A DNA stretch of 64,000 nt from Ilex aquifolium (lineage: Eukaryota; Streptophyta; Magnoliopsida; Aquifoliales; Aquifoliaceae). Every line of letters begins with the position of its first letter. The first letter of the stretch is position 1. The stretch covers positions 14,066,501-14,130,500 of the forward strand of contig OX637399.1 of assembly GCA_951799425.1 (NCBI GenBank), in the 5' to 3' direction. The notes beneath the pieces are model-generated. The model was not told the origin of the DNA. It saw only the letters and a program-made list of their open reading frames with translations, and ran no database searches. Position numbers and translations under genes: made by a program. Positions 1,439 through 64,000 of this stretch are shown one piece after another.

Positions 1439-1652
1439 GTACCGGTACCATTCAGTACCGGTACCCGGTACCGGTACTATCAACCCACTGGAAAGGGGGT
1501 ACCGGTATCCAGTACCGGTACCATTCAGTACCGGTACCCGGTACCGGTACTGTCAACCCACTGGAAAGAGGGTACCGGTGTCCAGTACCGGTACCATTCC
1601 GTACCGGTACCCAGTACCGGTACCATTCAGTACCGGTACCCAGTACCGGTAC
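1439..1652. repeat. CCGG palindrome cluster, TACCGGTA type (A1 LTR)
   Basis: Thirteen ACCGGT cores occur in about 214 bp, nearly all inside GTACCGGTAC palindromes. A larger unit of about 73 bp, with CAACCCACTGGAAAG as spacer, is repeated. The word TCCAGT, seen on one strand or the other, separates the palindromes. Confidence 0.9.
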
Positions 1653-4609
1653 TCTCTGCCCAGTTTTGCCATTTTCAACCATTTTTCATTTCCAATCCAT
1701 TTCAAACCTTTCCAAGGTCACCCAAACATATATATTCATGTTTTCTACATTATAAAAAGTCCATGGAAGTCCATTTAATACAATTCCATATATTTACACA
1801 TTAAAATGGAATTTATACGAAAACTTTACAAGTTAAACCATAAAAGCCATAAGTCGGCTTTTCTTCATTCTTGGGGTCCCGCATGAGGGTCTCCCACCGG
1901 CGTATAGTCCGCACCTGAAATGTGTCCCACGAAGGGTGAGCCACGCTCAATAGGATATCCTCCTACAGAGGCTACTCCTCAACCTATATGCATATGGAAT
2001 GTTCACATGCAACATTTAACAATTCATAACCATTCCAATCAAGGGCATGCAATTTAATGATTGAATGCAATCATGCTGTGCCATGAGATGGGATGAATTC
2101 CATTCATGTGCATCCACCCGAGCCCACACCGACTCACTTTACATGCAAATGCCATGTATGATGAACCAAGCTACCTGAGCCCCATGAATGAGATGATACT
2201 CACTCTTATAACTCACCCGAGCCCTTCCCGGCTCCTCAACACAATGCTAATGCCATGAGTATAAAACCGGGCTTCCCCAAGCCCCCGCCCTTGGTAGTTT
2301 GCACCCAATGACTCTTCCTTTAAAAATTTCTGGGTCTTTCTTTGGGGTGGGTATTTATGGACTTACACCAACGGTCACCCAACCGACACGGAATTTATGG
2401 ACTTCCACCAACAGTTCCGCGTACACCGACACACTTTATGGACTATTATACCAACGGAAGTGCGTATCCGAAACACCGGGTCTCACACCCGAGGGCGAGT
2501 CTAGCCCTTCTTGCTAACCCCGACCCAATTCTTTTTCATGTAACCATGAGACTCAACCGGATGTTCAATCCAGCCTTCCCGAGCCCACCTATCATCCACC
2601 TACATGGTGTTTGATATCAACCATGCACCCACACCCATAATGCGATGTTTCCGTGCATATGCAATATAATGTACCATTGCCACTTTTATGCCATGTTCAT
2701 ATGTAATGAATGACATAGGGATATTCCCTACTCACCCACACTCATGCCTAAGCCCATGAATGTGACACAAATGTCATGCTTAATATGCAATAATGCACCA
2801 TGAGCCATTCAATCACATGTTCGATATGTATGAGTGTCATACGAACAATTTAACATAAACCAACTCATCCATGGTAATTTATATCATGAGCATATAAATA
2901 CCGTAATCTTTCACAATGTCAACATATATCACAAGCATGTATATATGAACATTTCCTCAACACAATATCCAAGCATGTTGTACATAACTCATGCAAAACA
3001 TACTTCATTCTATAATGGCATTTAAACAAACACCTTAAAGACATACAATTAAATACTCAATTTCGTACAAGCTTTGCTTAGCACCTTTGGTACCCAATTC
3101 CCACACATGATATACATTAGTGGTAATCACATAATTCAAATATGTTATTTCAATTTAATTAAAATAACATATTTCACCCATTCTAGGGAACAAATTATGC
3201 AAACACATAACATGCCCAACATTTCACAAGAGATTACTTTAAGTAATTTCTACCATTCCAAACTTGAGATAGAATTTATTCTACCATTTCAATACCCATT
3301 TCACCGAATCACAACAAAAGGCAAGTGTTAAGGTTTCTAACAACCTACCCATTTTCTCCCAATTAACAACAATAGGTAATTGAGATAAACCTCTATCAAT
3401 CTACCCATTTCATAAAAACATGCTAGGTTAGGAATACACCAAGAGAGGAGGGAACCCTACCTCTTGTAGCGTGAGGAATCCCCGTAGGAAACTCCAAGAA
3501 GCCAACCCAAGCCCATTCCAAGCTTCTCCAAAATTTCGGTTTCCATACCTTCGGTGAAAACCGTCGTTCTTGGTGTCCACGCGTAGCCCTCGACGCGTAG
3601 AACATCTTTTGTTCTTGGCCTGAGACGATTTGAGCACTCCACGGCCGTAGATCGTAGAGAGAAGTCGGATTTTCTCTCATTTTCCCTCTCTTCTTTTCTC
3701 TCGGCTGAAACCAGCTGAAATGGTGTGTAGAAGTCTGATTTTTCAGACTTAGGCCCCTATTTATATTTTTTGAATACTTGGCCCTCATTGCGCCACACGT
3801 CCCTCTTAATTCCGGGTCCGTTTCAACCCCGAAACGATTAATTTTTGTCCCGGTTCAAGTTCAAAATATTTAATTTGAAAATAATTTAAATTATTTTCAA
3901 ATTCTCCATATTTTAACAAAATTTTCGTTTTTGGGGTCACCCGAGACTCGACCGCCTCGTAAAACGCGAAAAATCCGACTGTCTCGGAATTCGATGAAAT
4001 TTTATAGGGTAACTAGATTTCGCGAGACGAATCCAACGGTGAAATCCGTTTCGTCATCCGAGATCTAGAAAAATTCAGTTTTTCAACTAGTACCGAAGTG
4101 GCAATTCACCTATTGCCCTTGTTCGTCAAAGTTTAAATTTTTCCGGGGTTTCACAGCAATTACATCCCAAAAGCATTAAACGTAACTTACCAGCGGAATA
4201 ACAAAAGAAAACTAACTTTACATGATTTCAAAATAAATTCTCAAGTCTATTACAAATGAAGCTTTGTCTCTATATGTCCACCTCGGGAACTAGATTTCCC
4301 TCGAATGGGGCCTCCCACTACCCCTGCTCGTCAACTCCGAGGTTCTCCTCTAGCACCGTATCTGAAAAATGTTAGCGGTAGGGGGTGAGCACAAAGCTCT
4401 GTAGAAAAATTCTCTCAAACCCATACAAGGTTTAGAAACGCATTTAAAACGGTCGGTCTCATTTTTACAAATAGCATACATAATCTTTGAAGTAAAACAG
4501 GGACATTTAAAAAGGATCTCAAGTTTATGTATAAACATTATTTAAGGAATAAACGAGCACCACATAAAGATAATCATTAATGGCCATAAACAATCCCAAA
4601 CAATTCTTT

Positions 4610-5034
4610 AGGTAGGTGGCATACTTTAAGGTAACCTCCACCCCCCTTTAGATCATCTCGGATTCTCAAGCATCCTTAAAAGGAACCTCTTGAGAACCCG
4701 TTCTTTCGGTAGGTGGCATACTTTAGGGCAACCTCCACCCCCATTCTTCCGGTAGGTGGCATACTTAAGAGCAACCTCCACCCCCGTTTATTCCGGTAGG
4801 TGGCATACTTAAGAGCAACCTCCGGTAGGTGGCATACTTAAGAGCAACCTCCACCCCCATTTATTTCGGTAGGTGGCATACTTAAGAGCAACCTCCACCC
4901 CCATTTATTTCGGTAGGTGGCATACTTAAGAGCAACCTCCACCCCCATTTATTCCGGTAGGTGGCATACTTAAGAGCAACCTCCACCCCCATTTATTTCG
5001 GTAGGTGGCATACTTAAGAGCAACCTCCACCTCC
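4610..5034. repeat. 44-bp minisatellite in B1 LTR
   Basis: About nine copies of a unit beginning GGTAGGTGGCATACTTAAG and continuing with AGCAACCTCCACCCCC are arranged head to tail. Most are spaced 44 bp, one is shortened to 27 bp, and one is separated by ~97 bp. The homologous region of B2 and B3 has no such array. Confidence 0.92.
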
Positions 5035-5892
5035 ATTCATTTATTCTCAAGCATCCTTACAAGGAACCTCTTGGGAATGGGTGAGCATTCTTACAAGAAA
5101 CCTCCCACCATTTGCATCACAAACAACCCAACCAAGCATACAAGTCCAACATTTATTTCAAGTTACAATCATATATCCAAAATCCCCAAAATATAACATA
5201 TAACAATTCCACAACCAACTAAGAAAAATACATGAGATCACAATAGCATCATTTTTCTACCCAACACAAAGCACTAAGGTTTCGAAAATCCATAATAAAG
5301 AAAGCATTTAAGAAGGAAATACATCACTCTCCAAAATGAGGGTTTTAAAACTAGAGAAGAGATTTCATGGGTGTTAAACCCTAACTTTGTTCAAAACATG
5401 TAATCTTTGCCAAAAAGCATAAGAGAGGATGATTCCATAGCATATATATACCATTGATAGTCAAAACATACATATATAAATACCCTAACCTCAATGTAAG
5501 AGAGTGAGAGAAAACCCCTACCTTGATGTTCTTGAAGATCTAGGGTTTGATCTTGAATCACTCTTAAATCCTTTGTTTTCCCCTTTTGATCTTGTGTTTT
5601 CTCCTTCTTTATTCTTTTCTAAGACTCTCTCTAGGATTCCAAGAGGTGTGGGTAAGGGTGTAGTGAAAGTGTAGAAGAAGAGAGTAGAAGAATGGTGTTG
5701 TTGAGGAAATTTCGGTTTTGATCTCTATAAGGTGTAACTCTCTCAAGATCTTTGTGTTTTTCTCTCATTTTCTCTTCTCTTAGGGCTCTAAGATGTTTGG
5801 GGTGAGAGTGGGATGAAAGAATAGGCCAAATGAGGCTTAAAAGTGTGTTTTAAAACACCAAAATCCCGACTTTTTCGGTGCCAAGCTTCGGG

Positions 5893-5948
5893 CGTACCGG
5901 TACGCATACCGGTACGGTTTGGCTACTGGAGTTTGGCGTACCGGTACG
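5893..5948. repeat. CCGG palindrome cluster, CGTACCGGTACG type (B1 LTR)
   Basis: Three palindromes occur, two full CGTACCGGTACG and one with ATACCGGTACG. A CTACTGGA word lies between them. It is followed by a flank (GAGGTCGAATTGGAAAATT) that is nearly identical in B2, where the palindromes are of another type. Confidence 0.88.
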
Positions 5949-6444
5949 GTTGGACTGCCAGATTTTTGTTCCAACTTCCAGTGCGATTTTGACCCATTTA
6001 GAGGTCGAATTGGAAAATTTTCATGAGATACACTTTTGTAACCCTAGATGTCTACTATCTACTGTCAAAATTTCAGATCAATTGGATATAAGGATAAAAA
6101 GTTATGACCAAAATACTAGAAGGTGTCCCAACTCCTTTTTGCCCAAATTTTCTCTAAGTGTGTTTTCACTCCGAAATACTTCCTAGCTTCCAATACACCC
6201 CATATTACCTCTCCCAAGGTTGTTCGACCTTCCGGATTCAATGGACTCATTATTTTGACCTAAAAATGTTTAGAAACTTCCATAATCCCTCTTCTCAAGT
6301 TTGCACCCTTTCGAAACTCAAACTTCCCAATCCATTTGTCTCCCTAGTATTTATTCCTACTATTAATACACATATCCACATTTTTACCTCAATTATCTAC
6401 TATATATCTATATACATATATGAAAAGAAATGCGGGGTGTTACA

Positions 6445-6575
6445 AAATTGGCGCTTGCCTGTGCTAGGTTAGCAGCCATCGTACTCATAGCCTCCATATA
6501 GGCTTGTTGGTCCAAAGCCGGTAGTGGTTGGTTGTTTCGTCCACCGCCTAGACGTCCCCTCCCTCTATATGCCAT
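6445..6575 (-). pseudogene. gag N-terminus of element A2 (chromovirus-like), interrupted by B1
   Basis: Reading leftwards from an ATG at 6575, the frame starts MAYRGRGRLGGGRNNQPLP and continues for about 44 residues until the B1 LTR. An Arg/Gly-rich start followed by a short helical stretch is common in Tekay/Del gag proteins. It lies about 370 bp after the primer site of A2, as expected. The rest of the coding region lies left of the window, beyond B1 and A1. The element is broken by insertion. Confidence 0.6.
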
Positions 6576-6942: not shown

Positions 6943-7148
6943 CTGTGACACCCCAAAATCCGGGGGTCCGTTGATCATCCATCAACCCGCGGAAATACCC
7001 ATGAATGTCGCTTAACCCGACACCACGTCACCACATTCCCTTTACCGAGATTTATAATTATATATAAAAGAATTTCAAGTCCAACTTCTTTTGGTTGGTT
7101 AACCTATCCGAGATCCAATATACCACCATTGGCATCCAATTATTGTCC

Positions 7149-7155
7149 ATTTATA
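7149..7155 (-). promoter_or_regulatory. TATA box in A2 LTR
   Basis: Minus strand TATAAATGG lies about 83 bp downstream of the palindrome cluster, the same layout as in A1. Confidence 0.45.
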
Positions 7156-7238
7156 ACCTTTAAAGGAAGGAAACAATAGGCCCGGAAATTGGCAAACAAA
7201 AACAAAAAAAAATAAAATTTCAGAAAAATTTGGAGGGT

Positions 7239-7349
7239 GTACCGGTACGCGTACCGGTACGCTGTACCCACTGGACCTCGACGTACCGGTACGCGTACCG
7301 GTACGCTCTGCCTTCTGTCTGTCTCCGTACCGGTACGCGTACCGGTACG
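7239..7349. repeat. CCGG palindrome cluster, doubled CGTACCGGTACG (A2 LTR)
   Basis: Three blocks start near 7238, 7282 and 7326, that is 44 bp apart. Each is CGTACCGGTACG written twice in a row (the first lacks one base), so the 24-bp block is itself a perfect palindrome made of two palindromes. A CCCACTGGACC word lies between the first two. Confidence 0.92.
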
Positions 7350-10300
7350 ATTTTGGCCGTTTTGCCTTTTTCCTTTGTTTTTCATTTCCAATCCATTTCA
7401 AACCACTTCAAAATCATCCAAAACTTATACAATGAAGTTTCTAACATAAAACATTGTTTGTACAAGTTCTATTACAACCCAATAAATATATATATCAAGA
7501 TGGAATTTTGATTACAAAAGCTTTACAAAGTGACCATAAAAAGCCACAAGTCGGCTTTCTTCGTCCTTGAAGCCCGTATGAGGGTCTTCCACCCATGCAT
7601 ATCCCACACCTGAAAATGTTGTCCCACGAAGGGTGAGCCACGCTCAATAGGATATCCTCCTACAGAGGCTACTCCCCAACCTAAGTGCATATGAAATGCG
7701 CACATGCAACAATCAACAAGCATCAACCAATCCAACTAGAGTATACACTTCAATGTTAGAAAGCTACCATGCTATGCTATGTCATGCCATGATATGAGAT
7801 GGAACTCACTCACGCACCTTATCCCGAGTCTTCCCCGACTCACACAACACAATGCAAAAGCCAATGCGTATGAACCCGTCTATTGACGGAAAAACCCTCC
7901 CAATGATCGTTTGAATTAAAAGTTATGTCTTTAAAAAAAAATCAAATCATTGTTGGAGGCTACCCATTGAATAGGTGTTTTTATACAACAAAATCTTGTG
8001 TCTTCCTGGGCAACGGATTTTGGAATCACACCCCGGCTCCGTGGGCATGCCACTTTTCTGGAATTTCACCCTGGACAAGCGACTGAACCAAGTGGTTCCG
8101 GGTTTTTCACCCGAGGGAGTGTCTAGCCCTACTTGCTTTACCCGACACAAGCTTTTCTTATGCAATGCAACCGTGCAACTCAGTCGGATCTTAGATCCCG
8201 ACTTTCCCGAGCTCACATACCAATCACCAAGATTTGGTGTTTGATCCACAACACATGCACCCACCCACACCCATGTGTATTACCCATGAATGTGATGCCA
8301 ACTCACACGCACACTCATGTCTTATGACCATGAATGTGATGTACCCATGAGAATGCAATGTAATGTACCAATTGCACTCTAACCACATGTTCGATATGTA
8401 TGAGTGTCATATGAACAATGTCAAGATAAATCTACATATTCATGGTACTTCATATCATAAGCATATAAATACCATAATTTAACACATTGTCAATATATAG
8501 CAAGCATGCATATATCAACATTTCATCCAATAACCATTTTCAAACATGTTATCACATAAGCATGCAATTAACATAGCAAACTAATCAATACATCATTCTA
8601 GGCATTTAATCAAGGAAGTGATCTAAGTCCTTTCCCTAATTATTTTGTAAGTGTTAAGGCTCTAACACCCTTCTTTTCCATACAAACGTCTCATATAAGC
8701 AACTAAGGTGAGGAATAATCCCAAATAGGAAGAATCCTACACGTCATCATGTAACACAAGAAATTATTCTAAGTAATTTCTACACCACCATTTCAAGATA
8801 GAATATATTGTATCCACTTTCAACATCCATTTAATCATGTCACCAACAATGGGTAAAATCCCCATTTAATCAAGTCACCAACCATAGGTAAGAGTTCTAT
8901 ACAGAGTCTCCTACATCAACCCCTTTCACACAAACATCATAGCATGACATAAGTCCAAAACAGCCCATAAGTTTAACCCAAAACAGTCCGCAATTTCAGC
9001 CTCAAGGCAACCACAATTTCAGTCCCCAAACAACCATAAAAACAGTCCACTAATTAGCCACAAAACATTCCACTATTTCATTCACTTCCACAAAGATATA
9101 CAAGGAACTTCCATATATCAATTGTAAGCTAGAATTTAGCTTAAGTTATTCCTATAATCAATTCTTCATTTCCTTAAAAAAAACATACAATTCCAATTGT
9201 GAATCACACCACCCAAACATGTCATTCCACTTTCCTCCAAATAACAACTTTAATCCTTTAAGGCATTTCATCAAACGCCATATGAGCATAATGTCATGTA
9301 ACCACAAGGTATAGCCCACACACATCAATTATCATCATCAAACTCAAGAAATCATATCTAGTGATTTCTACATAATTATACCAAGATAGAATTTATTCTA
9401 TCCTTTTCTTAATATCCACATATCATAATCTCACAAGAGAATTATAAAGCAACCACCTCTAAATGTCTATTCCATTTAGAATTTCACTTTACCAACTTTC
9501 CCATATCCATTCTCTACACTTCAAGTTCCTTTATGAAATTTACCCAACAAGTAAATATATATACACCCATTTCATACCAACCTTGCTTAACACATTTGGT
9601 ACCCATTTCCCACACATGAAATACATTGGTGGTACATTAAACTAGAGAATGTGATTTAAATCATACCACCCATTCTCAATACCCATTTCACCCAATTAAC
9701 CACAATAGGCAAGTGATACATATATATATACACCTACCCATTCCATATAACCTTCCTAGGTTGGAAATAAACCTAAGTAGGAAGAAAACCCTACCTCTTG
9801 TAGCGTGTAGAATCGCCGTGGGAAGCTCCTAGAACTCAAAGCAAGCTTGAATCCTTCACTTCCAAATTTTCGGCCTCCCAACGTTCGGTGAAAGCCGTCG
9901 TTTTTGGTACCCACGCGTAGCCCTCGACGCGTAGAGCAACTCTCTCTTCTATCTCGACGGAATCCGAGTGACGGAACTCCGGGAAATCGAAAGAGAAACT
10001 TGAAGAACTCCCTTTTCTCTCTTCTCTCTCTTGGGCGGCTGAACAAGGCTGAAGAATGGGATATTTCTGCTGAAATATCCCATTTAAGGCCCTATTTATA
10101 TTTTTATAAGACTTGGCTCACAATTGGCCACACGTCCCTTTTAATTCCGGGTTCGTTTTAATCCCGAAACAATTAAATTTCGCTCCGGTTCGAGTTCAAA
10201 ATATTTTTATTTTAACTTGCCTCTAATATTTCCCCAAACTTTAAAATTTTATAAAAATTTCGTGTACGGGGTCACCCGAGGCCCGTTCGTCTCGTAAAAC

Positions 10301-10491
10301 GCAAAAAAATCCGACTATCTCGGAATTCAACGAAATTTGACGTGGTAACTAGATTTCACGAGACGAATCCAACGGTGAAATCCGTTTCGTCATCCGGGAT
10401 CTAGAAAAATTCAGTTTTTCAACTAGTACCGAAGTGGCAATTCACCTATTGCCCTTGGTCGTCAAAATTTAAATTTTTTCGGGGTTTCACA

Positions 10492-13442: not shown

Positions 13443-13450
13443 TATTTATA
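13443..13450 (-). promoter_or_regulatory. TATA box in B2 LTR
   Basis: Minus strand TATAAATA lies 53 bp downstream of the palindrome cluster, a good match to the plant TATA consensus. Confidence 0.5.
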
Positions 13451-13502
13451 GTGGAGGAAGAGCCGGCATTCGCGAAACAGAAATTTTTGGATTTTTACAC
13501 TA

Positions 13503-13621
13503 ACCTTCCGGAAGGTTTGTGTCTTTCTTCCGGAAGGTTTTGCTCACTGGAAGGTTTTTTTCATCGACCTTCCGGAAGGTTTTATCGTCCTTCCGGAAGG
13601 TTTTGCTCACTGGAACTTCTA
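13503..13621. repeat. CCGG palindrome cluster, CCTTCCGGAAGG type (B2 LTR)
   Basis: Four palindromes centred on TTCCGGAA occur. Two are followed by GGTTTTGCTCACTGGAA, and the first by GGTTTGTGTC. The same words accompany the same palindrome type in the Athila-like element D1. The position in the LTR matches the TACCGGTA cluster of B1. Confidence 0.92.
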
Positions 13622-14113
13622 GCGCATTTTTGACCTATTTAGAGGTCGAATTGGAAAATTTTCATGAGATACACTTTTGTAGCCCTAGATGTCTACTATC
13701 TACTGTAAAAATTTCAGATCAATTGGACTTAAGGATAAAAAGTTATGGCCAAAGTACTAAGAAGTGTCCAAAATCCTAAATTCCCAAATTTTCTCAAAAA
13801 TGTGTTTTAACTCCAAAATACTTCCTAACTTCTAATACACCTCATATTACCTCTCCCAAGGTTTTTCGACCTTCCGGACTCAATGGAAACCTTATTTTGA
13901 CCTAAAAAAATTTAGAAACTTATCTAATCACTCTTCTTAAACTTTAACATCTCCAAAAACTCAATTCACCCCGAAAGTCAATATGCTTGGAACTCAACTT
14001 CAAAAAATCAATATTCTAACAATGATTCTAAGTTTCTATGATCACTTTATCTATCTTAGGAGAACTCTTAAGATAGTGTTAGTCTTTATTTAATTTTAAT
14101 ACGAGGTGTTACA

Positions 14114-16269: not shown

Positions 16270-16588
16270 TGTAACACCCCGCATTTTTTCTTTTATATAT
16301 ATGTATATAGATATATAGCAAATAATGGTTGTAAAGATGTGGATAGGGGTATTGAAGTGTGTTTGAACTTTGTAAATTTGAAAAAGTAAATATTTAAAAA
16401 AAAATGTTAATGAAAATCATAGTTGAAATTTAGTTTTAGTGAGTGAAAATATAAAATGTTAGGTCCTATAACTTGTATTAGATAGGTTTGGTGTATAAAT
16501 ATGTGTTGGAGAGGTTTGTGGTGGATTTGGTTAGTTTTGGAATGGATTGGAAAAGGAAAACAAAAGAAATAGGCAAAACTGGGTAATT

Positions 16589-16686
16589 GGTACTGGTACT
16601 GGGTACCGGTACTGAATAGTACCGGTACTGAGTACCGGTACCCCGATTCCAGAAGGTTTCTTGTACCGGTACTGGGTACCGGTACC
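16589..16686. repeat. CCGG palindrome cluster, GTACCGGTAC type (B3 LTR)
   Basis: Five TACCGGTA cores occur, with near-copies such as GGTACTGGTACTGGG at the left. A degenerate AGAAGGTTT piece in the middle resembles the B2 type. Confidence 0.88.
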
Positions 16687-16732
16687 ATTTGTCTGACGCC
16701 CGCTAAACAGTTAAAAGTCGGGATTTTTGTGT

Positions 16733-16739
16733 TATAAAA
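16733..16739 (+). promoter_or_regulatory. TATA box in B3 LTR
   Basis: TATAAAA lies 47 bp downstream of the palindrome cluster, with a CT-rich leader after it. Confidence 0.5.
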
Positions 16740-18297
16740 CCCATCCCACATCCCATTTGCCCCATTTCTTCATCTCCCTCTTACCCTAACCCTCCTAGAA
16801 ACCCTTAGAGAGAAAGAGAGAGAGAGAAAACTCAAGATGAAAAGGAAAGACAAAGGGCTCACAAGTGATTCAAGACTCAAACCCTAGGTTTCTTCAAGAG
16901 CATAAGGTAGGGGATTTCTTCCCATTCTCTTACATTGAGGCTAGGATTAAATTATATGTATTCTTTTGGTTCAAAATCATATATACTTGCTATTATTGAC
17001 TTGATTCTTGATCCTCTTGCATTTATTGCCATGTTTTAAACATTGTGGTAGTTGGGTAACCATTGAAGGTCCCTTTTTCATTCTCAAACCCTAGTTTTAA
17101 GAAAAATGAATATTTCCTCTTTACATTTTCTTTGTTCTCACCATCACAACCTTAGTGCTTGATATTGTATAACAAAATGATGTTTATGGTGATCTCTTGC
17201 TCTTTTTCTTCCATTTTGCTATGGTACAAATTGTGAAGTTTGGGGAATTGTGGAGTTATTTGTTAATTAAGGAAATTGTGGATATCGTATGTCTTGTTTG
17301 GTTGTTTGGAGGAACAAGAGTGAGAGGTTCCTTGTAAGGATGCTTGAGAAGTAAGGCTTTGAGGGTGAATTGGGGGACTTGTGTAATTGTTGGTTATGTG
17401 AGATAGTTATTGGTATTTTACTTCTTATGTGGTTGTATGATACGAACATGGATTACTATGGACCGGGTATCATGTAGTGGGTATACGTCTTTATATGCCA
17501 CGCGGGTATGAACTTTTCCTACCACATGGAGTGGGTAAACGCCTTTGTACGCCGTGTGGGTATAAACTTTTCATATCGCTAATGATCACGGGTTAGTAAC
17601 GTGGGTTGTATCGGGCACACAGTGTGGGTCATCGTGCATTGTACCATAAATTGTTTTGACAAGAGTTTCGGGAAGTATGGGATTCTGCGAGAACTTGTTG
17701 AAAACGGTTCATGGTAGAATGAATTACCAATGGTATATGGTGTTTATTTATCCATTTCGATTACTATTGCTACTTAAACTTGAGATCTATTTAAAATGTC
17801 CTGTTTTTCCTTCAAAATGTTATATATGCTATTTGTGAAAATGAGACCAACCGTTTTATATGCTTTCCTAAACCTTGTTTGAGTTTGGGAAGATTTTGCT
17901 ACAGAGCTTCGTGCTCATCCCCTATAATTAACATTTTTCAGATCATGCTATAGAGGAGGAGCTCGGTGTGAATGAGTCGGGCCTTGGGGAAGCCTCATTA
18001 GAGGGGTACCTGGATCCCGAGTGGGACATGTAGAGATGCCCCTTTTATTTTTGGTACTAGACTAGGAACCAATATGTACAAACATTGTAAAGTATAGTTT
18101 CTTTTGCTATTCCGCTGTGCTACTTTAATTAATTTTTGAGATGTAAATGCCATGGTTGGGCATATTCTTTTGGAAATGATGTAAATATTTTATGGATGAT
18201 GAATGAAGTTTAATTTATTTATGGATGATATTAGTGCTCTCATGATGTGAATGTTTTAGAATGTAATGCCGTCCAGGGTGGTATTTGGGGCGTTACA

Positions 18298-47548: not shown

Positions 47549-49224
47549 TGCTTGAATCGTTTTCCCTAATCTCCAAACATGAGCCCGAATTGTGTGTATA
47601 TGGCTTATACGAGTTGGTGAGTGTCACTATCCCTTGAGTTCAAATGCAAGAAATGGAAAAAATCATGCGTGTGAACAAAAACGTGTGTGTATACAAAAAT
47701 GCTTCCCAAGCGTAAAAAGACTTGCAATGTCATGTTTTATTTGGAATGATTATTCCAAGGTCGTCTCCTCAGGAAAGGAAATGTCAAATGCTTTTGAGGG
47801 TGATTTGTAAAGAAATGAAAATTGGAAAATCTTGTGAATTTTGTTTTGGTGAGTTGTGTTTTGAGAAGTATGCAAGAAAGCAAGGTTAGATAATCCATAG
47901 AGGTCATTCCAATGGGAATGCCAAATCGACTCAATCATTCAACCAATGGTGTCTCGGTGTTTGATTGATTCGTACGAAGTGAGAGACTAATGTGGTTGTG
48001 TTGGACAAAAGTATACCTTGTGAAAAGTCTACAGTGTATCAAGAGCCCACAACCACGTCCGCACTCAACCTAGTCAAACCAAACACTTTACACTACGAGG
48101 AAGAATGTACCCAAGAGGAAATTCATCTTGGATTAGCCAACTAAAAGTTTAGCTACTCATAATAAAGGCAAGAACCAACATAAAGTAAAGAGACATGGTA
48201 GTGAAATGAAGCATGAAACTTGTATTAATGCTAGAAAAGGTTTAAACTACAAGAGCAAAGTCATTCATACCCAAAATATAAAGCTTGAAGAGAAAATACC
48301 CAATTGTAGAAATGGAAATGCAAGAACACTTAACTAAGCTTGATTACAACTTAAATAAAAGTGTTTAGAGGGAAAGATTACAAGTAAAATAAAGCTTACT
48401 ACAATGAAAATGGTGAAGGAAATGTAAAAACCCAACTTTCTCTCTCTAAAACTTCATCTTCAACCTTGGAGCTTCTATCTCTAAAAGCATGTAAAATCTG
48501 AATAATGGTGTAAGACTCTCCAATTTTCATCAATCATCTCTCCCTTAGCATGTGTGAACTGAATTGGAATGATTGGAGAGAGGTTGGACACTTGAACAAG
48601 CAAAATCAGTCCAAACATGCTCCTCCCATGGTTTCCCAACCACCCCTCTTATCTCTCTTGCTTCTCCTCTCTCTCTTACTTCAAATTTGACTTTAGGGGT
48701 TAGGAGAGCATCATGGGGTTTCAAACATGTGAGGGTATGGTTTGGAGGTCAAGAGGTGGCCCCCGGAGTAAATGGAGTCGTGTGAGCAGGTGTCTGGCAG
48801 ATCTGGGCAAAACCTACCGGTAGGTTTTTTCTTGTAAGATTTTCTACCTGTAGGTTTTTGCCTGATAGAGGTAGAAGATTTCCAGTAGCATTTTCTACCT
48901 ATAGGTTTTGAATCTTCTACCGGTAGGTTTTGAATGACTTTTACTGGTAGGTTTTGGTTGCCTTCTACCGGTAAGTTTTGTCTTGCTTTGGGATTTTCTT
49001 GGTTCCTTGAGGTCCCTAGTCATCCGTTAAGCGGTCCTTTCTGTCCCATTGACTTTGAGCACTTGGTGGGAGGCTTTATAGACAACCTTACTTGCTCTTT
49101 ACATACAATCACATGAATCTCCATTAATTGTGAATTTGAAAGCATTTCCCCCAATTTTCACCACAAAACAAGTAAAATTGGTGCAATAGAGATGCATGAA
49201 GCGCAATATTCTATACTCATCACA
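47549..49224 (-). repeat. 3' LTR of Athila-like element D0
   Basis: The right end, TGTGATGAG on the minus strand, abuts a GGGGGG polypurine tract. The body aligns over its whole length with the 1,661-bp LTRs of D1 and D2. The left end is placed at TGCTTGAATC by that alignment. It carries a TACCGGTA cluster. It is more divergent than the other two, in line with being the oldest of the nest. Confidence 0.8.
48811..48980. repeat. CCGG palindrome cluster, CTACCGGTAGG type (D0 LTR)
   Basis: Three exact or near-exact CTACCGGTAG palindromes plus decayed copies (CTACCTGTAGG, CTACCTATAGG, TTACTGGTAGG) occur, with TTCCAGTAGC between them. The cluster begins CTGGGCAAAACCT, as in D1 and D2. Confidence 0.88.
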
Positions 49225-50011: not shown

Positions 50012-51672
50012 TGTGCTTGATGTTTTTCGTTGTATTCCCTAATCTCCGGTAATCTTCCCTCAATTTGCGTATGGCTTATAGGGGTAGGGGAATGTCACTC
50101 TCCCTTGGAATGATGCAAGAAATGGGGAAACAGAATAATGATGGGATGTGAATGAAATGTGTGTGTGTGAACAAAAGTGCTCCCCAAGCGCAGGGAGACT
50201 TTCGAGTGTCGTGTTTTACTTGGAAATCGTATTCCAAGGTCGTCTCCTCAGAGAAGGAGGTGAATCGCATTGAAGGTGATTTTGGTGATGAAAAAGAAAA
50301 GAGCAAAAATCTTTTGATGTTTGAGTTTGGTTTGTGATTGTGTTTTGATGAAATTGAAATGGGAACAAGTGTTGGCTAATCCGAAAGGGTCATTCCACTG
50401 GGAATGCCAACTCAACTCGAGACCTTCCCCTAATGGTGTCTAGATGTTCGATTGATTCGTGGGAAGTGAGAGACTAGGATGGAGGTGAGGATCTAAGCAT
50501 ACCCCGTGACAAGTCTACGGGATATCAAAGACTCACAACCATGTCCACACTCAACCCAATCAAACCGAATCAACATACACTACGAGGAGGAAAAAAAATG
50601 AGTTGAAATGGCATACCCAAGAGGAGTTCTCCCTTGGACTAGCCAACTTAAAGTTTAGCTATTCATATTTAAAGCAAGAACATACATGTAATGAAGAGAC
50701 ATTGTAAAGAAATGAAGATTGAAATTTAGTTTAATGCAAGAAAACTTAAACTAAGACTATAAACATTCAATACCCATTTTAAAACTTGAAATGAAGAAAA
50801 CTACCTGCAACAATGGTGAAAACCAAAATGGAGAACTAAACTTGCAATGTGCTTGTAATAAATGACATTAAAGGCATTAAATGAAACTTACAGGAGTCTT
50901 ACAGAGGATTACAAGTGAAATGGATGAAAGAAATGCAAGAAATCTAAGCTGTCTCTCTCTAACTATGTCTTCTACCTAGAGCTTCTCTCTCTATAATGCA
51001 ATACAGCTGAATAATCCATAATGAATGATACATTTTCGTCCATAGAGAGCTCCATAGGTGTGTTACAGGCTTTACACCAGAAGGGGGCTGATTGGATGCA
51101 TTTGGCAGGCTAGGACAGGCCTAGCCTGCATCTCCCCTGCATTGCCTCTTCTCTCTCCTCCACATTAATGTCAATGCCTTTAAAGTCCAAGCTAAGGTGA
51201 GGGGAGGCCTGTAGATGTGTAAGGGATGTCAGGGGACAAGTGGGAGAAGTGTAGGTGGGACCCCCAAATGGCAGAGCTTGAGTTGCAGGCTGTCTGGGCA
51301 AAACCTTCCGGAAGGTCGACACAAACCTTTCAGAAGGTTTGTGCAGGAACAGTTAAAATGGAAAACCATAAAGCAAAACCTTCCGGAAGGTTCATTCTAG
51401 TAGACAAAACCTTCCGGAAGGTTTTCACCCAAACTGCATTTTTCTTGGTTTTTTCACTCTCCAAGCCTTCCTTTAAGCTATCCCCTCATCTTCATTGACT
51501 TCAAACACTTCAATGGGGGCTTAACTTGAATCATTTACATCTTTTTACCTGCATTTACACAAAACTCCATCAAAGAGAAGATTAAACGCATTTCTCCCCA
51601 ATTTCACGACAGAAGCAAGTATAAAAGGGCATATTAGCATATAATATATGTAACATTTTTGTGCTAATCACA
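50012..51672 (-). repeat. 3' LTR of D1 (1,661 bp)
   Basis: It begins TGTGATTAGCAC on the minus strand, directly after the polypurine tract, and ends CATCAAGCACA. It has the same length as the D2 LTR. The left edge interrupts the D0 ORF. Confidence 0.85.
51301..51426. repeat. CCGG palindrome cluster, CCTTCCGGAAGG type (D1 LTR)
   Basis: Three perfect CCTTCCGGAAGG palindromes and one decayed (CCTTTCAGAAGG) occur. The words GACACAAACCTT and TCTAGTAGAC lie between. The start is CTGGGCAAAACCT. Confidence 0.92.
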
Positions 51673-53573: not shown

Positions 53574-53672
53574 ACCTTCCGGAAAGTTTTGCTTACTGCC
53601 TGAGGCAAAAATTCCAGTAGATTGGACAGAACCTTTCGGAAGGTTTATACACAAACCTTCCGAAAAGTTTTG
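53574..53672. repeat. CCGG palindrome cluster, CTTCCGGAAG type (D1 internal)
   Basis: Three decayed copies (CCTTCCGGAAAG, CCTTTCGGAAGG, CCTTCCGAAAAG) occur, with ATTCCAGTAGAT between and GTTTTGCTTACTGCC after the first. It starts 290 bp upstream of the env-position ORF and begins GGGCAAAACCT like the LTR cluster. The palindrome type agrees with the D1 LTR. Confidence 0.85.
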
Positions 53673-55530: not shown

Positions 55531-55534
55531 ACCT

Positions 55535-55747: not shown

Positions 55748-58700
55748 CTAAAGATCATAAGAAAAGTCAATCCTCCAACAAGTCCGGGTAAACCGGATCC
55801 ACCAAATCCTCCTCCACTCCTTGTCCTTCAAAACCCTCGAAGAATGGCTTGAGTCTTTGGCCATTGACCTTAAATGTCCTGCCATTCTCGGGGTTTGTGA
55901 CTTCCACGGCTCCATTGGGATAGGCCACCTTGACAAGATAGGGGCCATCCTAACGGGATCAAAGTTTACCTTGAAAGATTGAGATACGAGAGTTGTATAA
56001 GAGCACTTTTTGGCCGGCCTCAAATGACTTCCTCACAATGGATTTGTCATGAAAGATCTTAGCCTTCTCTTTTGAAATTTTGGAGCTCTCATAGGCATCT
56101 CTTCGAATTTCTTCCAATTCATTCATTTTTAGTTTGTTATTCTCTCTGTCCATTCTCATGTTGAAGTTCAAAGTCTTTACGGCCCAATAGGCCTTGTGTT
56201 CCATTTCAACTGGCAAATGGCAAGCCTTGCCATAGACGAGCCGGTAGGGAGACATACCTAAGACAGTCTTATAGGCAGTGCGGTAAGCCCATAGGGCATC
56301 GATCAGTCTACATGACCAATCTTTCCTATTCGGGTTCACCATTTTCTCTAAGATATTTTTAATCTCCCTATTGGCCAACTCGGCTTGGCCATTGGTCTGT
56401 GGGTGATACGCGGTGGACACCTTGTGTGTGACACCATACTTATGCATTAAGGATGCAAATGACCTATTACAGAAATGAGACCCACCATCGCTTATCATAG
56501 CACGAGGCATCCCGAACCTCAAAAAAATGTTCTCCTAGAGAAACTTGACCACGACCCAGTGGTCATTGGTCTTGGTTGGGATAGCCTCCACCCATTTGGA
56601 CACGTAGTCCACTGTCAGCAGAATGATAGGTAGCCAAACGACCCAGGAAAGGGACCCATGACGTCGATGCCCCAACAATCAAATATCTCGATAACAAGTA
56701 CAGGGGAGAGGGGCATCATGTTCCTTCGGGTCACGCTACCCAAACGTTGGCACCTATCGCATTCTTTACAGAAAGAGATACAATCTTTTATCAGAGAGGG
56801 CCAATAAAAACCTGATTGTAGAATTTTTGCTGAAGTCTTCTTGGAAGAGAAGTGACCACCGCATGCTTCCGAGTGGCAAAATGCAAGGACATTCCGCTGC
56901 TCATTTTCCGATACGCATCTCCGCATGACTTGGTCAGGCCAGTACTTGAATAGGTACGGATTGTCGAAGTAAAAGTACTTCACATCCGCCATAAATCTTA
57001 TTCGATCCTCCGGGATCCAGTGCGGTGGTATTTGTTCTGTTGCAAGATAATTACATATGTCAGCATACCAGGGACAAACTGAATGAATTGAAAGTAATTG
57101 CTCATTAGGGAAAAAATCAGGGATATGAATGTGCTCATCGGCCTCTTGCACCACCAATCGGGATAAATGATTTGCCACCACGTTCTCCACTCCCTTCTTA
57201 TCTTTGATTGTCAAATTGAACTCTTGGAGTAGGAGGATCCACCTGATGAGTCTCGGTTTGGCATCTTGCTTAGACAACAAATACTTCAAAGCAGAGTGAT
57301 CAGTATAGACTACTATCGGTGAACCAATGATGTAGGACCGAAATTTATCCAATGCAAATACTACCGCTAGCAACTCCTTTTCTGTGGTGGTATAGTTCAT
57401 TTGAGCTTGATTAAGTGTTTTGCTAGTGTAATATATTACATAAGGTCTCTTATCCTCCCTTTGACTGAGCACTGCGCCTACCGCGTAATCACTTGCGTCG
57501 CACATAAGCTCAAAAGGTAAATCCCACTTAGGTGGTCGCATAATCAGAGGTGTAGTAAGCATGCTTTTGAGTTTTGTAAAATATGCCTCACAATTATCCG
57601 ACCACTCGAATGGGACATCCTTAGACAGTAAATTATTCAAAGGTCGGGCCAATGCACTAAAGTCTTTAATAAAACGACGATAAAAGCCGGCATGGCCCAT
57701 AAACGACCTGATATCCTTTATGACCTTCGGTGTAGGGAGGTTGGAAATGGCCTCAACCTTTGATTTGTCCACTTCGATCCCCTTCGCCGAGACGATATGC
57801 CCAAGAACAATTCCTTGTGTCACCATGAAGTGACATTTCTCCCAATTCAAGACTAAGTTCTTCTCCTCACATCTCTCGAGAACTCTCTCCAAATTCTCCA
57901 AACATCCACTGAAGGAATCCCCAAACACCGAGAAGTCATCCATAAACACCTCTACAATCTTCTCCACCATATCACTGAAAATCCCCATCATGCAACGTTG
58001 AAAATTTTCAGGGGCATTGCACAACCCAAAGGGCATGCGACGGTAGGCAAAGGTACCGTAGGGACAAGTGAAGGTGGTCTTCTCTTGATCTTCCAATGCA
58101 ATCTCGATTTGATTGTAGCCGGAGTATCCATCCAAGAAACAATAGAATAAGTGTCCGGCTACTCTTTACAACACTTGGTCGAGGAATGGCAATAGGAAGG
58201 GGTCTTTTCTTGTGCATAAGTTGAGCTTTCGGTAGTCAATGCATACTCTCCATCCGGGTATCACCTTAGTCGGAATCAACTCATTATCTTCATTTGCTAC
58301 CACAGTGACCCTCGATTTCTTCGGTACCACTTGAGTGGGACTCACCCATTTACTGTCGAAAATCGGGAAGATGATGCCCACATCAAGTAGTTTAAGTACC
58401 TAGTCCCTCACCACATCCTTCATAATTGGATTCAATCTTCTTTGTGGTTGTCGGGAAGGCTTGGAGTCATCCTCAAGGTAGGTGCGGTGTGTGCAAATGA
58501 GGGGGCTTATCCCTTTGATGTCGGCAATTGTCCAACTAATCGCTCCTTTATGCCTCCTCAACACTTCCAAGAGATCCTCTTCTTGCTTCTCCTCCAGTGT
58601 TGAGCTAATCACAACCGAAAATGTCTTTTCATCCCTAAGTTATGCATACTTAAGATGGGATGGTAATGGCTTCAATTCCAATATGGGTTTTTGCTCATTT

Positions 58701-58950: not shown

Positions 58951-60611
58951 TGTGCTTGATGTTATTTCCTTGTTGTTCCTAACCTTCTAACATTATTCCT
59001 CAAATGTATGTATGGTGTGTGTGTGAAGGGGAGTGTCACTCTCCCTTAGAATGATGTCAAAAGAAAGGGTAAGGGGATGGTGAAATATGAAGTGTGTGTG
59101 TGAGTAAAAATGATTCCCAAGTGTGTGTGTGTGAGCAAAAAAAGACTTTTGCGTATCGTGTTTTACTTGGAGGTATTCCAAGGTCGTTTCCTCGGGGAAG
59201 GATGTGAATCGTGTAGAAGGTGATTTTGGTGAAAACGAAGTGTAAAGTCTTTTGTTGTTAAAGTTTGGTTTGTGAGTTGTATTTTGATGAAAATGAAATG
59301 GGAAATAAGTGTTGGCTAATCCAAGGGGTTCACTCCAATGGCAAAGCCAAGTCAACTCAAGACCTTCCTCCAATGGTGCATAAATGAACGATTGATTCGT
59401 GGGAAGCTCAGGACAAGATGGAAGTGAGGATCCAAGCATAACCCGTGACCAGGCCTACGGGCTATCAAAGACTCACAACCATGTCCACACTTCAGTCAGA
59501 CCGAACCATCGTACACCGAGGGGAGGAAAGAAAAAGAGTTGAAATGGCATACCCAAGAGGAGGTCTCCCTTGGATTAGCCAACGTAAAGGCTTAGCTACT
59601 CATGCTTAAGGTAAAGACAATAATGAAATGAGAAGACATTATCAAGAATTGAAGATTGTAGCTAAGCTAATGCAAGAAAACATAAACTAAAAGAGAATGC
59701 ATTTAATACCCATTTCAAGCTAAGAAATTGAAGAACATAGAAACATTAATGGTGAAAGCTTTAATGGAAGGCTAAACTTGAAAACAACTTGAGATAAATG
59801 GCATTAAAGGCATTAGAGGAAGCTTAGAAAGATCTTACTTGAAATTACAATGCAATGTATGGAAGGAAAATGGAAAAACATTAACTTCTCTCTCTAACAC
59901 TATTCATCTTCTTCCTTGACTCCCTCTCTCTATATTACAATGTATATTCTCTAATGCAGAATAATGAGTCTTTTCCCTCTAACAACATCCATGGAGTCAT
60001 GCCATAGCTGTGTGATGTGATCTCCTTCCCTAGGGCTGCAAAAGAGTGGGCTGGACAGGGTAGGTGCAGACCTTGTCTGCACACCCAACATCTCTTCTCT
60101 TCTCTCTCCTCATTGATCACCAAGGCTCCAAAAGTCTAAGAAGAGGTGCAAGAGGGATGTCCATGGTGTTGGGAGTGTCAGAGGCAGGTAGGAGAATGTC
60201 TGGTGGGACCCCCAAGGTGGCAGAGCTTGACATGCAGAATCTGGGCTGTATCAGTACAACCTACCGGTAGGTTTCACTCCAGTAGGCTTAAAATACCGGT
60301 ATGTCTGGCGGTAGGTTGAGGTCCAGTAGCTAAGACCTACCGGTATGGCCTACCGGTAGGTTTTCCCTTGTTTCTGCTAATTTCTTGATTTCTTCACCTC
60401 CTGAGCTATCTTCAAGCCATCATTTCATCATCATTCACCTCAACCAATATGGGAAGGCTTGAAGAAGCACAATTTATCACCTTTTATGTGCAACTATACC
60501 GAAATTCCATAATTAGCGCAAACAATGCATATCAACTCATGTTAACCTCAAAAGCCAGCACAAAAGGGATGCAATAGCACTTTAAATATGCAATATTTTG
60601 TGCTAATCACA
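58951..60611 (-). repeat. 3' LTR of D2 (1,661 bp)
   Basis: It runs from TGTGATTAGCAC to CATCAAGCACA on the minus strand, closely matching the D1 LTR outside the palindrome cluster. Confidence 0.87.
60260..60364. repeat. CCGG palindrome cluster, CCTACCGGTAGG type (D2 LTR)
   Basis: Two perfect CCTACCGGTAGG copies plus ATACCGGTAT, CTACCGGTATGG and GGCGGTAGG variants occur. CTCCAGTAGG and GTCCAGTAGC lie between. Confidence 0.92.
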
Positions 60612-60630
60612 CCCCCCCCCCCAACTTGAG
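60612..60630 (-). other. Polypurine tract of D2
   Basis: Minus strand CAAGTTGGGGGGGGGG, longer in G than in D0 and D1. Confidence 0.8.
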
Positions 60631-60938: not shown

Positions 60939-62321
60939 CTAATCGTCGTCCTCATCACCATCTTCATCGTCACCCCTATCAAAATCACTCTCACCCTCCA
61001 CCTCCTCATCATCATCATCATCATCCTCCTCCGAATCCCCCACCTCAACTACTGTGGAGGCAGAAGGAACAGAGGCAGGAGGTGGAGGTCCATAAGCTGG
61101 AGGTGGTGGTCCACTGGGGAGGGGTCTTCCTGGAAATGTGTGCATGAACAACTCCTTCATTATCGCAGAAATACCTTGCACCGACACCTCCAACCCATGC
61201 ACTGTCATCTCTAAAGTGTCCAGACGCTGAGGTATTGAGCGTTCTGGTGTAGCTGTGGATGGCCTAGCAGATGAGGGTCTCGGGATGGCAGGCTCCACAG
61301 CTGGTGTAGATGAAGATGGTTCGGGAGCTTCAGACTCTTGCCCCGAAGCCCTAGCTCGCTCCCTCCAGCTCATCGCCGTCCTCTTCAAACTACTGGCCTT
61401 GCCAATAGCCCCTGTCTCGGGAGGAGTAAGCTTGTCAAAGGCATAGGCCTTCACCTTGAAGTGCTGGCACATCCGGGTCACCAAACTCCCGATTGGCAAA
61501 TTAGTCTTGGGCTTCTGTGTCTCAGCAAAGTCTTTCATTACCTCCCAAATGACAAGAGCGAAGTCAACCGTCATCCCAGACATGACAGCGTCCAAAAGAC
61601 CTAGCTTTTCAAGATTCGGTGTCTTTTCTGCGCCTCTCGGTAGAAGATTGTAATGGAGAAGTTTATTCAAAAGCCCGTACGAGTGCTTTAGCCCTCCAAC
61701 GTGAACAGTTCCCTTGAATTGAGTACGATCATCATACATCAAAGCCACAAGCTCAGCAATGGTTTTGGATCGGGTGACATTGTGAGGATAAACTAGCGGG
61801 AATGAGGGTGATCTCTTATACTTTCCAAAGAGAGTGGCAATAACCTCTGGGGTCACCTCAAACATATTTCCCCGTACATTCGATCGCAAACTCTCGACCC
61901 CATCCACCTCCACCACCTTGAGTGTTTGGTAGAATTCCCGGACCAACGAAAAATTGTACCCATCAACAGGCTCAAACCAAAACTTCATCCCATGGGCATC
62001 AATGAGACGGACCACCTCGTTCCTCAGGCCAAGTGAGATGTGGTCAAGGTGCCGCTCACATGTTACATTCTTCTCCTGGATCAGTTGATTCCTAGCCTCA
62101 TGTCTGGCCTTTTTCCTTTGCTCATTTCTATCCCCACTCAACCCTTCACCGCCTCTCTTGTGATTGGAAGGCTCCTCGGGTTGAGAGGAGTCGGGTCCGA
62201 CTCTCTTGGTTCAGGCCATGCAAAGCAACAGTGCCCCCATAGTCAGGATTGTGAAAAAGAACAAGAAAAGACCCTCAATAGGATCCATAGCCTCATGGAC
62301 GATCTCCACATGACGAGCCAT
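60939..62321 (-). pseudogene. Env-position ORF of D2, nearly whole
   Basis: Starting at the ATG at 62321 there is a membrane helix (GLFLFFFTILTMGALLLCM) and a hydrophilic linker. A ~200-residue domain follows (LRNEVVRLIDAHGMKFWFEP, SLVREFYQTL, SNVRGNMFEVTPEVIATLFG, HVGGLKHSYGLLNKLLHYNL). Then come a Ser/Pro-rich region, a short helix (RLDTLEMTVHGLEVSVQG) and an Asp/Glu-rich tail. It matches the D1 and D0 copies. The long stretch from 62141 to 60939 is open for 400 residues, with about one break in the whole ORF. The domain resembles the putative plant transposon protein family. Fossil element; function unknown. Confidence 0.75.
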
Positions 62322-62341
62322 TGAGAGTGTTTTTGGGGAAT

Positions 62342-64000
62342 TTGAGAAATAAGGGGAGAATTAGGCTTGAAGAATTTTCGGCACTTCTAGGGTTTCAAGG
62401 TTAGGATCCACAAAATCTCAGCACAAATGATGGAGATTTGAGAGATTGAAGGAAGGGGAGAGTGATTTGGAAGCCTAAGAAGGTTTTGAGTGAGAGAGGA
62501 GTGTTATAGGGCTCGAGATTAAGGAGGAAAGTGAAAGGTTTTACCGAAAAACATTGATAAAAAGCCCTAATTTTAGCTTTCTGGGCAAGACCTACCGGTA
62601 GGTCGATGGAAACCTACCGGTAGGTTGCACACCAGTAGGCAAAACCTATAGGTAGGTTTTGCCTTAGTTGCAACATCTCCTGCTAAGCAACACACCTCCA
62701 CTCCTCTTCATTTCAGGACCTCCCCTATACATTCTAACACTCTCTTTATGACCTCTACTCCACACTAATCATGTACTCCACTTGTAAATCACAATTTGAA
62801 CCATCATGCCCAATTCATAACCGAAATTGCAATGTGATTTAAAATTTTGATGCATTCAACGCACAAGGCATGGATTTCAATATTTAACCATCAAAATGAA
62901 TACCCAAAAAGCATTTTATATATTCAACAACACGGATATTCCTCAATCATTCAAATATCAAAAACTTGAGCAATATTCCCCTATTCTACAAGCATGGAGC
63001 TAACTAACACATTGTTTAATTGGCCGAACTAAGCACACATGAGCATCACTATAGCCTCCAATACTAGTCTAAAGTATGCACCTACACATTCATTCTCGAA
63101 CTCGTGTGTGTGTGAATTGAAGAAGTAATTTGAGCATTTACGCAACATAATTCACATTTGAATGGCTAGCCAAGTTCAGTTTCGCTGCAAAAACTCACCA
63201 AAGGTTGCTCTTAATAATGAAATACACTCTAGTTATCCTGGCATGCCCTCCATGTGTACATGTGAGATAAAATCTTGTGCACAAAACAAAGTATACTCAC
63301 ATGTAATCCAAAAATGAAGTTCATGTATGAAAATGAAGCGAATTTGGCATAATCTCATGAAAAGAATGCTAGGGCATTGGGTAGTAAGACTAACTCATCC
63401 TTTTTATTTAAAATTATGCATCTCCCATGCTTCTCTAGATCACTTAGGATTTTAAAGGTTGTAATGGGGCCTTGGGGCGATATTGAGGCAAAAGAAATGA
63501 AGGACATAGGATACAAAGAGGGTTGTTCTGAGTGAAAGACTTTTTATTTCAACAACACCTCCCTTTTCACGGGATTTTCATTCCATTCTTATACCTTCAC
63601 CACACACTTTGTATCTTTTCTCTATTTTCCTTAACATTTTCTTTTTATTTTGATAATTCTTTCTTCTTCTCACCCCTTTTCTTCCTTTTCTTGAATTTTC
63701 ATTCTTCCTCTTTTTTTTTTTTCAACTCTTTGAGTTTCAACAACAATTATCCCTTTCTTGAATTCCCACACCACACTTCCTTCACTTTTGCAATCACTTA
63801 TTTCCAGCTTTAGGAACAACCAAGGTAAGGTAGATATTTCTCATTTTCATCGGCTTGGTCAAATGTGTGGCATAGAAACGAATTTCCATTAGGCTCAATC
63901 ACGGCACTAGGGATAATATTTTCACAAGAGTAAGGCAAATGCTCGAGATATTCAAAGATGGCCTAGGATCACTTCCAGATACGCATGGGAGGGCATTGGA
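62342..64000 (-). other. Non-coding spacer of D2
   Basis: Upstream of the env-position ORF, homologous to D1 53300-54960. It contains the palindrome cluster and a CT-rich tract near 63600-63790. No ORF is recognised. Confidence 0.7.
62590..62660. repeat. CCGG palindrome cluster, CCTACCGGTAGG type (D2 internal)
   Basis: Two perfect CCTACCGGTAGG copies and one CCTATAGGTAGG occur, with CACCAGTAGGC between. It is about 270 bp upstream of the env-position ORF and agrees in type with the D2 LTR, not with D1. Confidence 0.9.

Follow-up and report, generated by a model that had tools for sequence, protein, structure and literature searches.

The closest known system to the one described here is the palindromic repeated motif (RM) of Sireviruses, which belong to the Ty1/copia superfamily; Bousios et al. 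2010 (PMC2829016) call it Sirevirus-specific, the comparison set being other Ty1/copia elements. There, the RM is a CGG-CCG dyad, mostly around a short spacer, and its clusters lie in the long terminal repeat (LTR) shortly upstream of the TATA box, with an extra cluster upstream of the env-like open reading frame (ORF), and form CpG islands. Here we analysed a stretch of 64,000 nt of the holly Ilex aquifolium (assembly GCA_951799425.1, contig OX637399.1, positions 14,066,501 to 14,130,500; hereafter, the window) and, from it, the whole genome, in which arrays of palindromes with a central CG, which we call cassettes, occupy the LTRs of several unrelated retrotransposon families. The cassettes come in discrete flank types, or dialects, that are shared across lineages and, within one family, are pure in each copy and swapped as blocks. 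They are probably proximal-promoter arrays read by a dimeric DNA-binding protein, and recombination between elements would account for their exchange.

The architecture is similar to that of the Sirevirus RM. As there, the cluster lies shortly upstream of a TATA word in a chromovirus-like family, A (22 of 30 copies), and in a set of LTRs of family A, of a non-autonomous family, B, and of Ty1/copia (9 of 13), but not in Athila-like elements (0 of 8, a ninth having one); and an extra cluster lies upstream of a third ORF (4 of 4), which here matches PF20167 and in Sireviruses is env-like. Unlike the RM, the cassettes are hosted by Ty3/gypsy elements of chromovirus-like and Athila-like kind, by a non-autonomous LTR family and by a short Ty1/copia element (L014); the dyad axis falls inside CCGG or TCGA, with no spacer; and discrete dialects are common to different lineages and swapped as blocks. 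The architecture once called Sirevirus-specific is extended to Ty3/gypsy.

Two other systems are also comparable. In maize, Martin et al. 2023 (PMC10760457) described one palindrome shared by two unrelated superfamilies, Copia and Helitron, with a strong predicted RNA structure, both features being as in our case; dialects and cassette swapping are not mentioned in the available part of that paper. The arrays of VANDAL elements recognized by VANC proteins (Hosaka et al. 2017, PMC5735166) resemble the cassettes in being family-specific short motifs in non-coding arrays, with several variants, concerted change by tandem duplication and a motif shared with an unrelated element. They differ in that VANDALs are DNA transposons, with non-palindromic motifs in one orientation and an element-encoded binder whose binding was shown. 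Among the matches listed in a literature search of open-licence papers, no such cassettes in Ty3/gypsy LTRs were found, and the available parts of PMC11963269 and PMC7264820 contain nothing on these palindromes. Among those matches, hence, what is new is the presence of cassettes in Ty3/gypsy and short Ty1/copia elements of one genome, their shared discrete dialects and their block exchange, while the kind of structure is known from Sireviruses.

All ten clusters of CCGG-cored palindromes claimed by the original prediction for the window were found where it had placed them. Below, W followed by a number denotes a window cluster by its start position, and L followed by a number a locus read elsewhere in the genome. 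The window contains 107 CCGG words, and those extending to palindromes of at least 8 bp fall in the ten clusters, plus two strays (22871 and 56014); W53574 is decayed and retains a single exact 8-bp palindrome. Exactly symmetric 3-nt flanks were present at 39 of the 107 sites, against 9.0 expected (standard deviation, sd, 2.5; maximum 16) when the right flanks were re-dealt among the sites in 500 shuffles. In a genome sample of 25 stretches of 10 kb, picked by coordinate alone, the corresponding value was 43 of 305 against 6.7 expected (sd 2.5, maximum 15). For the other 15 four-base palindromic cores, a strong excess was present in the sample only for ATAT and TATA, which reflect simple repeats (z about 10), the remaining cores reaching at most z = 2.9 in the window (CGCG) and 2.6 in the sample (TCGA). 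The word CCAGT, which the original prediction, as CCAGTR, had placed between the palindromes in at least eight clusters, was present in nine of the ten (W53574 judged by eye), W51301 being without one. Considering as clusters those with two or more sites and a margin of 30 bp, CCAGT/ACTGG occurred 35 times in 3,948 bp at clusters and 321 times in 310,052 bp elsewhere, an 8.6-fold higher density.

We then counted each palindrome in 800 Mb of the genome (103 contigs), using as a control its reversed word. The three dialects of the window were all abundant: GTACCGGTAC (GTA) had 51,910 sites against 907 for the reversed word, CTTCCGGAAG (CTT) 23,874 against 931 and CTACCGGTAG (CTA) 22,728 against 353. 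Two further dialects were found, CGTCCGGACG (CGT; 8,992 against 134) and CGTTCGAACG (TCGA type; 32,359 against 278). Leaving aside AT-rich words, the most frequent 10-bp palindromes in the first 20 sample stretches (200 kb) were the same five, namely CTACCGGTAG (17), CGTCCGGACG (8), GTACCGGTAC (7), CGTTCGAACG (5) and CTTCCGGAAG (4). The claim of only three flank types is therefore correct within the window, while genome-wide there are at least five symmetric types; that of CCGG as an invariant core fails, since the TCGA-cored CGTTCGAACG is a high-copy type, and what the five dialects have in common is a central CG within a symmetric frame. Chance or base composition as the origin of the palindromes was ruled out by the shuffles and the reversed-word controls. 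A coding explanation (open frames of VPVP/TGTG-like translation run across the arrays) was rejected as a by-product of the repeat. As to insertion-target palindromes, the sites sit within the LTRs and not at their ends.

The two half-sites change together more often than independence predicts, as the original prediction had proposed. In fact, GTA/CTA hybrid sites numbered 938 genome-wide, against about 32,000 expected from the word counts under independent halves; they are fewer than their own reversed word (1,250) and near a matched one-base non-hybrid variant (686), and there is no abundant GTA/CTA intermediate. For CTT/CTA hybrids the count was 4,189 against about 25,400 expected. Half-site coupling is strong, with one visible intermediate. 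Within copies, one-base deviants persist (27 against 156 perfect sites). We also counted 24 'double symmetric' deviants, a kind to which GTACGCGTAC junctions of adjacent sites belong; this number was not used.

Cassettes were found in the LTRs of family A, of family B, of Athila-like elements and of one Ty1/copia element. The LTR of family A begins with TGTAACACC. Its assignment as chromovirus-like comes from L070, where a pol fragment lies between two family A LTRs: reverse transcriptase (RT), RNase H and the integrase zinc finger are clear, while the rve (E 1.6e-6, 28.7 of 32.6 bits) and Chromo (E 6.1e-5, 23.3 of 25.1 bits) matches are both below the curated cut-offs, and the end of the fragment matches the polypurine tract (PPT) and LTR start at window 16231-16300. 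Family B is represented by L013, the single complete element seen, whose LTRs, each about 3.0 kb long, are 97.9% identical, with 1.24 kb from primer binding site (PBS) to PPT; this is too short for gag-pol, so B is non-autonomous. The original prediction had eight LTRs with cassettes, five of them chromovirus-like; the eight stand (three of family A, two of family B and three Athila-like), while for the two B copies no lineage can be read from such an element.

The Athila lineage is characterized by a gypsy pol, a third ORF after pol and a PBS for tRNA-Asp. In L026, a gypsy pol is followed by a PF20167 ORF, with CGTTCGAACG sites both at the 5' end of the PF20167 frame and above that end, and a PBS of the TGGCGCC type is readable near 9520; in the window no such PBS was found at up to 3 mismatches. 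L023 has pol and then a PF20167 region, which is broken, and its alignment with the window indicates that the window pol (55962-58165) continues into the unit formed by W53574, a broken ORF region and the LTR cassette W51301. The Ty1/copia element, L014, is 4.9 kb long, with 445-bp LTRs that are 99.55% identical and four CGTCCGGACG in each LTR. Two observations on the organization of these hosts can be added. An LTR with CGTTCGAACG sites, of the same kind as that of L026, is nested at L023:2047-3988 in the Athila-like element, just before its internal CTT cassette, hence two dialects lie within a few kb. Family A LTRs also occur in long rows with spacings of about 5.1 kb and 5.4 kb (contig C1:28180266-28262099; contig C20:6357096-6394813), a pattern that head-to-tail amplification of LTR-internal units would produce.

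Family A allowed us to follow the dialects copy by copy. A 30-base anchor word beside its cassette matched 4,142 genome places at up to 2 mismatches. From 100 listed places we sampled 40 copies, skipping most copies in tandem arrays; all are exact anchor matches on C1, so more diverged copies are unrepresented. Together with two window copies, a cassette was present in 41 of 42 (25 GTA, 13 CTA and 3 CTT), none of them mixed, and one copy was without a cassette; L029 adds the CGT dialect to the family. On a tree of the 250-bp flank, at least six dialect changes are required, and its well-supported branches force two changes for GTA and two for CTA. Two copies are mosaics. W13503 has a flank 98.8% identical to that of L035 (GTA), though the cassettes are only 48% identical, while its cassette is 91.2% identical to those of the CTT copies L039 and L047, the flanks of both being about 84% identical to that of W13503. 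In L065, the flank shares 94.4% identity with that of L038 (GTA), the cassettes of the two sharing 58%, while the cassette shares 98.8% with that of L059 (CTA), whose flank is 85.9% identical. Both copies record a cassette exchange between family A subfamilies, in which cassette and flank have different histories.

Between lineages, similarity is likewise confined to the cassette and its edges. Precisely, window LTRs of families A and B are similar only over the cassette, the match extending in two pairs into the 5' flank, by 53 and 75 bp; those of A and Athila-like elements align within the cassettes or at most 26 bases beyond, the strongest match being CTT with CTT (49 bp, 86%, E 9e-11); and those of B and Athila-like elements give one cassette match. 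Dialects cross the same borders: in family B the window copies are GTA and L013 is CTA, CTA is common to families A and B and Athila-like LTRs, and CGT to family A (L029) and Ty1/copia (L014). The sharing thus goes beyond the two Ty3/gypsy lineages originally proposed and reaches Ty1/copia. In the proposal of a transferable regulatory module, transferability is supported by the two mosaics and by this confinement, while the regulatory role is suggested by position.

The features of the window that enter the analysis of position are given below, with LTR limits that are approximate, as obtained from alignments and end sequences.

1439..1652, minus strand: GTACCGGTAC-type cassette; host, family B LTR (about 1153-4155); PBS-like GCTCTGATACCA at 1139
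1338..1345, minus strand: TATA-like TATAAATC, 93 bp sense-downstream of the 1439 cassette; TATA-like words on the other side too
5893..5948, minus strand: GTA-type cassette; host, family A LTR (about 4157-6445); downstream only TTTAAA
7239..7349, minus strand: GTA-type cassette; host, family B LTR (about 6944-10491); PBS-like sequence at 6929
7148..7155, minus strand: TATA-like TATAAATG, 83 bp sense-downstream of the 7239 cassette
13503..13621, minus strand: cassette, CTTCCGGAAG (CTT) type, mosaic copy, in a family A LTR (about 11586-14000)
13443..13450, minus strand: TATA-like TATAAATA, 54 bp sense-downstream of the 13503 cassette
16589..16686, plus strand: GTA-type cassette; host, family A LTR (about 16269-18297); the alignment with family B LTRs covers the cassette and at most 75 bp of its 5' flank
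16733..16740, plus strand: TATA-like TATAAAAC, 47 bp sense-downstream of the 16589 cassette
48811..48980, minus strand: cassette, CTACCGGTAG (CTA) type, partly decayed, in an Athila-like LTR
51301..51426, minus strand: cassette, CTT type, in the Athila-like LTR of the CTT unit
53574..53672, minus strand: decayed internal cassette of CTT type; the broken third-ORF region (about 51992-52945) lies downstream
55962..58165, minus strand: Ty3/gypsy pol pieces (RT, RNase H, integrase) of the CTT unit, in two open segments
60260..60364, minus strand: cassette, CTA type, in the Athila-like LTR of the CTA unit
60942..62210, minus strand: PF20167 (Transposase_32) ORF of 423 aa with an acidic tail, E 1.5e-24, third ORF of the CTA unit
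62590..62660, minus strand: internal cassette of CTA type; the PF20167 open frame begins about 380 bp downstream

For family A we searched TATA[AT]A on both sides of the cassette in the 30 copies with at least 60 bp available on the sense side, hence leaving out 9 of the 39 cassette-bearing sampled copies (both CTT and 7 CTA) and the two window copies. The word was present sense-downstream in 22 copies, at 51-54 bp in 20 of them and at 64 and 85 bp in the others, and on the other side in none of the 30. By dialect, it was found in 6 of 6 CTA and 16 of 24 GTA copies, at the same distance from the cassette in both, and the CTT copy W13503 has its TATA box at 54 bp. We then considered 13 LTR cassettes of families A and B and Ty1/copia from the window and the sample: the strict word was downstream in nine and on the other side in three, and the remaining four had only TTTAAA downstream.

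In Athila-like elements, a second cassette lies upstream of the PF20167 ORF in all four third-ORF regions examined (W62590, W53574, L023:4661 and L026:2284), which represent three kinds of element because W53574 and L023 are one family. The broken region downstream of W53574 is assigned to PF20167 by homology to L023 and has no Pfam match of its own, and the pol of the CTA unit would fall beyond the window. The LTR and internal cassettes of one element have the same dialect, namely CTT in W51301/W53574 and in L023:6961/4661 and CTA in W60260/W62590; in L026 the match is of the TCGA type, by homology of its LTR to L023:3437.

From abundance, symmetry, position and sharing across lineages, and from the purity and the swaps seen in family A, we infer protein binding, promoter function, the kind of binder and the recombination route, as follows. 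Each array would consist of 2 to about 12 palindromic sites of at least 10 bp with a central CG and interspersed CCAGT words, and each site would be read whole by a two-fold symmetric protein, that is, a homodimer. The LTR array would drive the genomic RNA and, in Athila-like elements, the second array of the same dialect would drive or co-regulate the third ORF. Each dialect would reflect the specificity of one of a few such proteins, which are more likely to be transcription factors of the host than products of the elements. A change of dialect would be a swap of the whole cassette by LTR-LTR recombination, probably through template switching in reverse transcription, and such swaps, together with re-amplification of one unit, would keep each copy pure. 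RNA hairpins form readily from the cassettes; they may follow from the palindromes and, in addition, attract silencing, as has been argued for Sireviruses in maize (PMC10760457). LOB-domain factors were considered as binders for a likeness to CCGGA motifs, and no lead emerged among the matches listed in the literature search. A broader proposal, which we advance only tentatively and regard as doubtful, is that a palindromic 'password' divides the LTR retrotransposons of this genome into regulatory guilds, so that the same dialect across superfamilies would mean the same dimeric factor, and a lineage would change guild by importing the cassette of another, even unrelated, element. If this were true, the promoter specificity of retrotransposons would be modular, exchangeable and shared across superfamilies, which would help to explain why families burst together or apart, and one dimeric factor per dialect would be predicted.

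Several observations weigh against the promoter-array interpretation. TATA[AT]A is missing from the available sequence of 8 of the 30 family A copies, and it is absent within 130 bp on the sense side of all eight Athila-like cassettes tested. A ninth, L023:3437, has the word at 94 bp; it was omitted from this test, as was L019:7990 (of unsettled orientation). As Athila-like cassettes mostly lack a TATA word, promoter function is weakest where the third-ORF argument is made. Only 6 of the 38 inner branches of the flank tree are well supported, most forks being weak, and, since copies are related by descent, the genome counts and the 42 family A copies overstate the number of independent events. 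CTT/CTA hybrids exceed their reversed control (1,546) 2.7-fold and a matched variant (289) 14-fold, and the L071 array near the end of C1 has fixed them at 3 of 12 sites, so symmetry is not an absolute need; the earlier statement that symmetry is kept when the flank changes thus holds in that half-sites agree far above independence, and not as an absolute rule. Lastly, RNA folding is strong, with 10 of 12 cassette windows of 110 nt below -40 kcal/mol, as a structure-based explanation predicts too.

According to that explanation, which we think rather unlikely, neighbouring sites pair into transcript hairpins, or into single-strand DNA structures, serving packaging or dimerisation or arising as a by-product that would feed small-RNA silencing, a role proposed for Sireviruses of maize. 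Each of the 12 windows folded better than its shuffle mean (z -2.3 to -7.9), 11 of them better than all 200 shuffles, and palindrome-rich Sirevirus LTR regions of maize draw an excess of small RNAs (PMC10760457). Pairing, however, needs two complementary sites, yet most sites are individually symmetric, and RNA structure does not require a cassette on the promoter side of TATA, as in 9 of the 13 cassettes of A, B and copia, or a near-fixed distance as in family A.

An element-encoded protein, in Athila-like elements perhaps the product of the PF20167 ORF, could instead bind its own dialect and counter silencing or activate transcription, as VANC does for VANDAL, with other families exploiting it. 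The shared dialect of LTR and internal cassettes and the cassette upstream of each of the four third-ORF regions fit this idea, as does the precedent of VANC motif arrays, which change together by tandem duplication, one motif being shared with an unrelated element (PMC5735166). We consider it quite unlikely, given that no PF20167 ORF was present in L013 (family B), L014 (copia) or the family A pol fragment, no genome-wide search being made; the model of the PF20167 protein is poor (mean predicted local distance difference test score, pLDDT, 49), uninformative on DNA binding and too poor for a fold search, and the three relatives found for the protein were of no help with lineage. Highly improbable, in our opinion, is mutational self-correction, in which hairpin-templated correction keeps the symmetry and slippage spreads the palindromes, with no function. 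Purity within copies and tandem units such as those of L039 do fit homogenisation, but the dialects that return in unrelated lineages are few and discrete; once AT simple repeats are set aside, a clear excess is confined to CCGG cores, with a weak one for TCGA; GTA and CTA copies lie at the same distance from TATA; and the one-base deviations reported above persist in copies.

As regards the spacing of sites within cassettes, the distinct spacings of CTA and CTT cluster near a period of 10.5-11.5 (R 0.71-0.79), and those of GTA do not (0.38 at 10.5); since the copies are related, nothing was concluded on helical phasing. Near the end of contig C1 (60573-192121), CTT palindrome arrays recur, with several pairs 7,643 bp apart, and L071, with its 9 CTT and 3 hybrid sites, lies there. 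Elsewhere in the window, a copia-type gag remnant was detected at 22253-22903 on the minus strand (Retrotran_gag_2, E 7.6e-6, slightly below the cut-off), and another RT fragment at 40155-40841 on the minus strand (RVT_1, E 1.7e-13), distant from any cassette. The region 37516-38495 contains a 314-bp direct repeat, 93% identical and 666 bp apart, with inverted matches adjoining.

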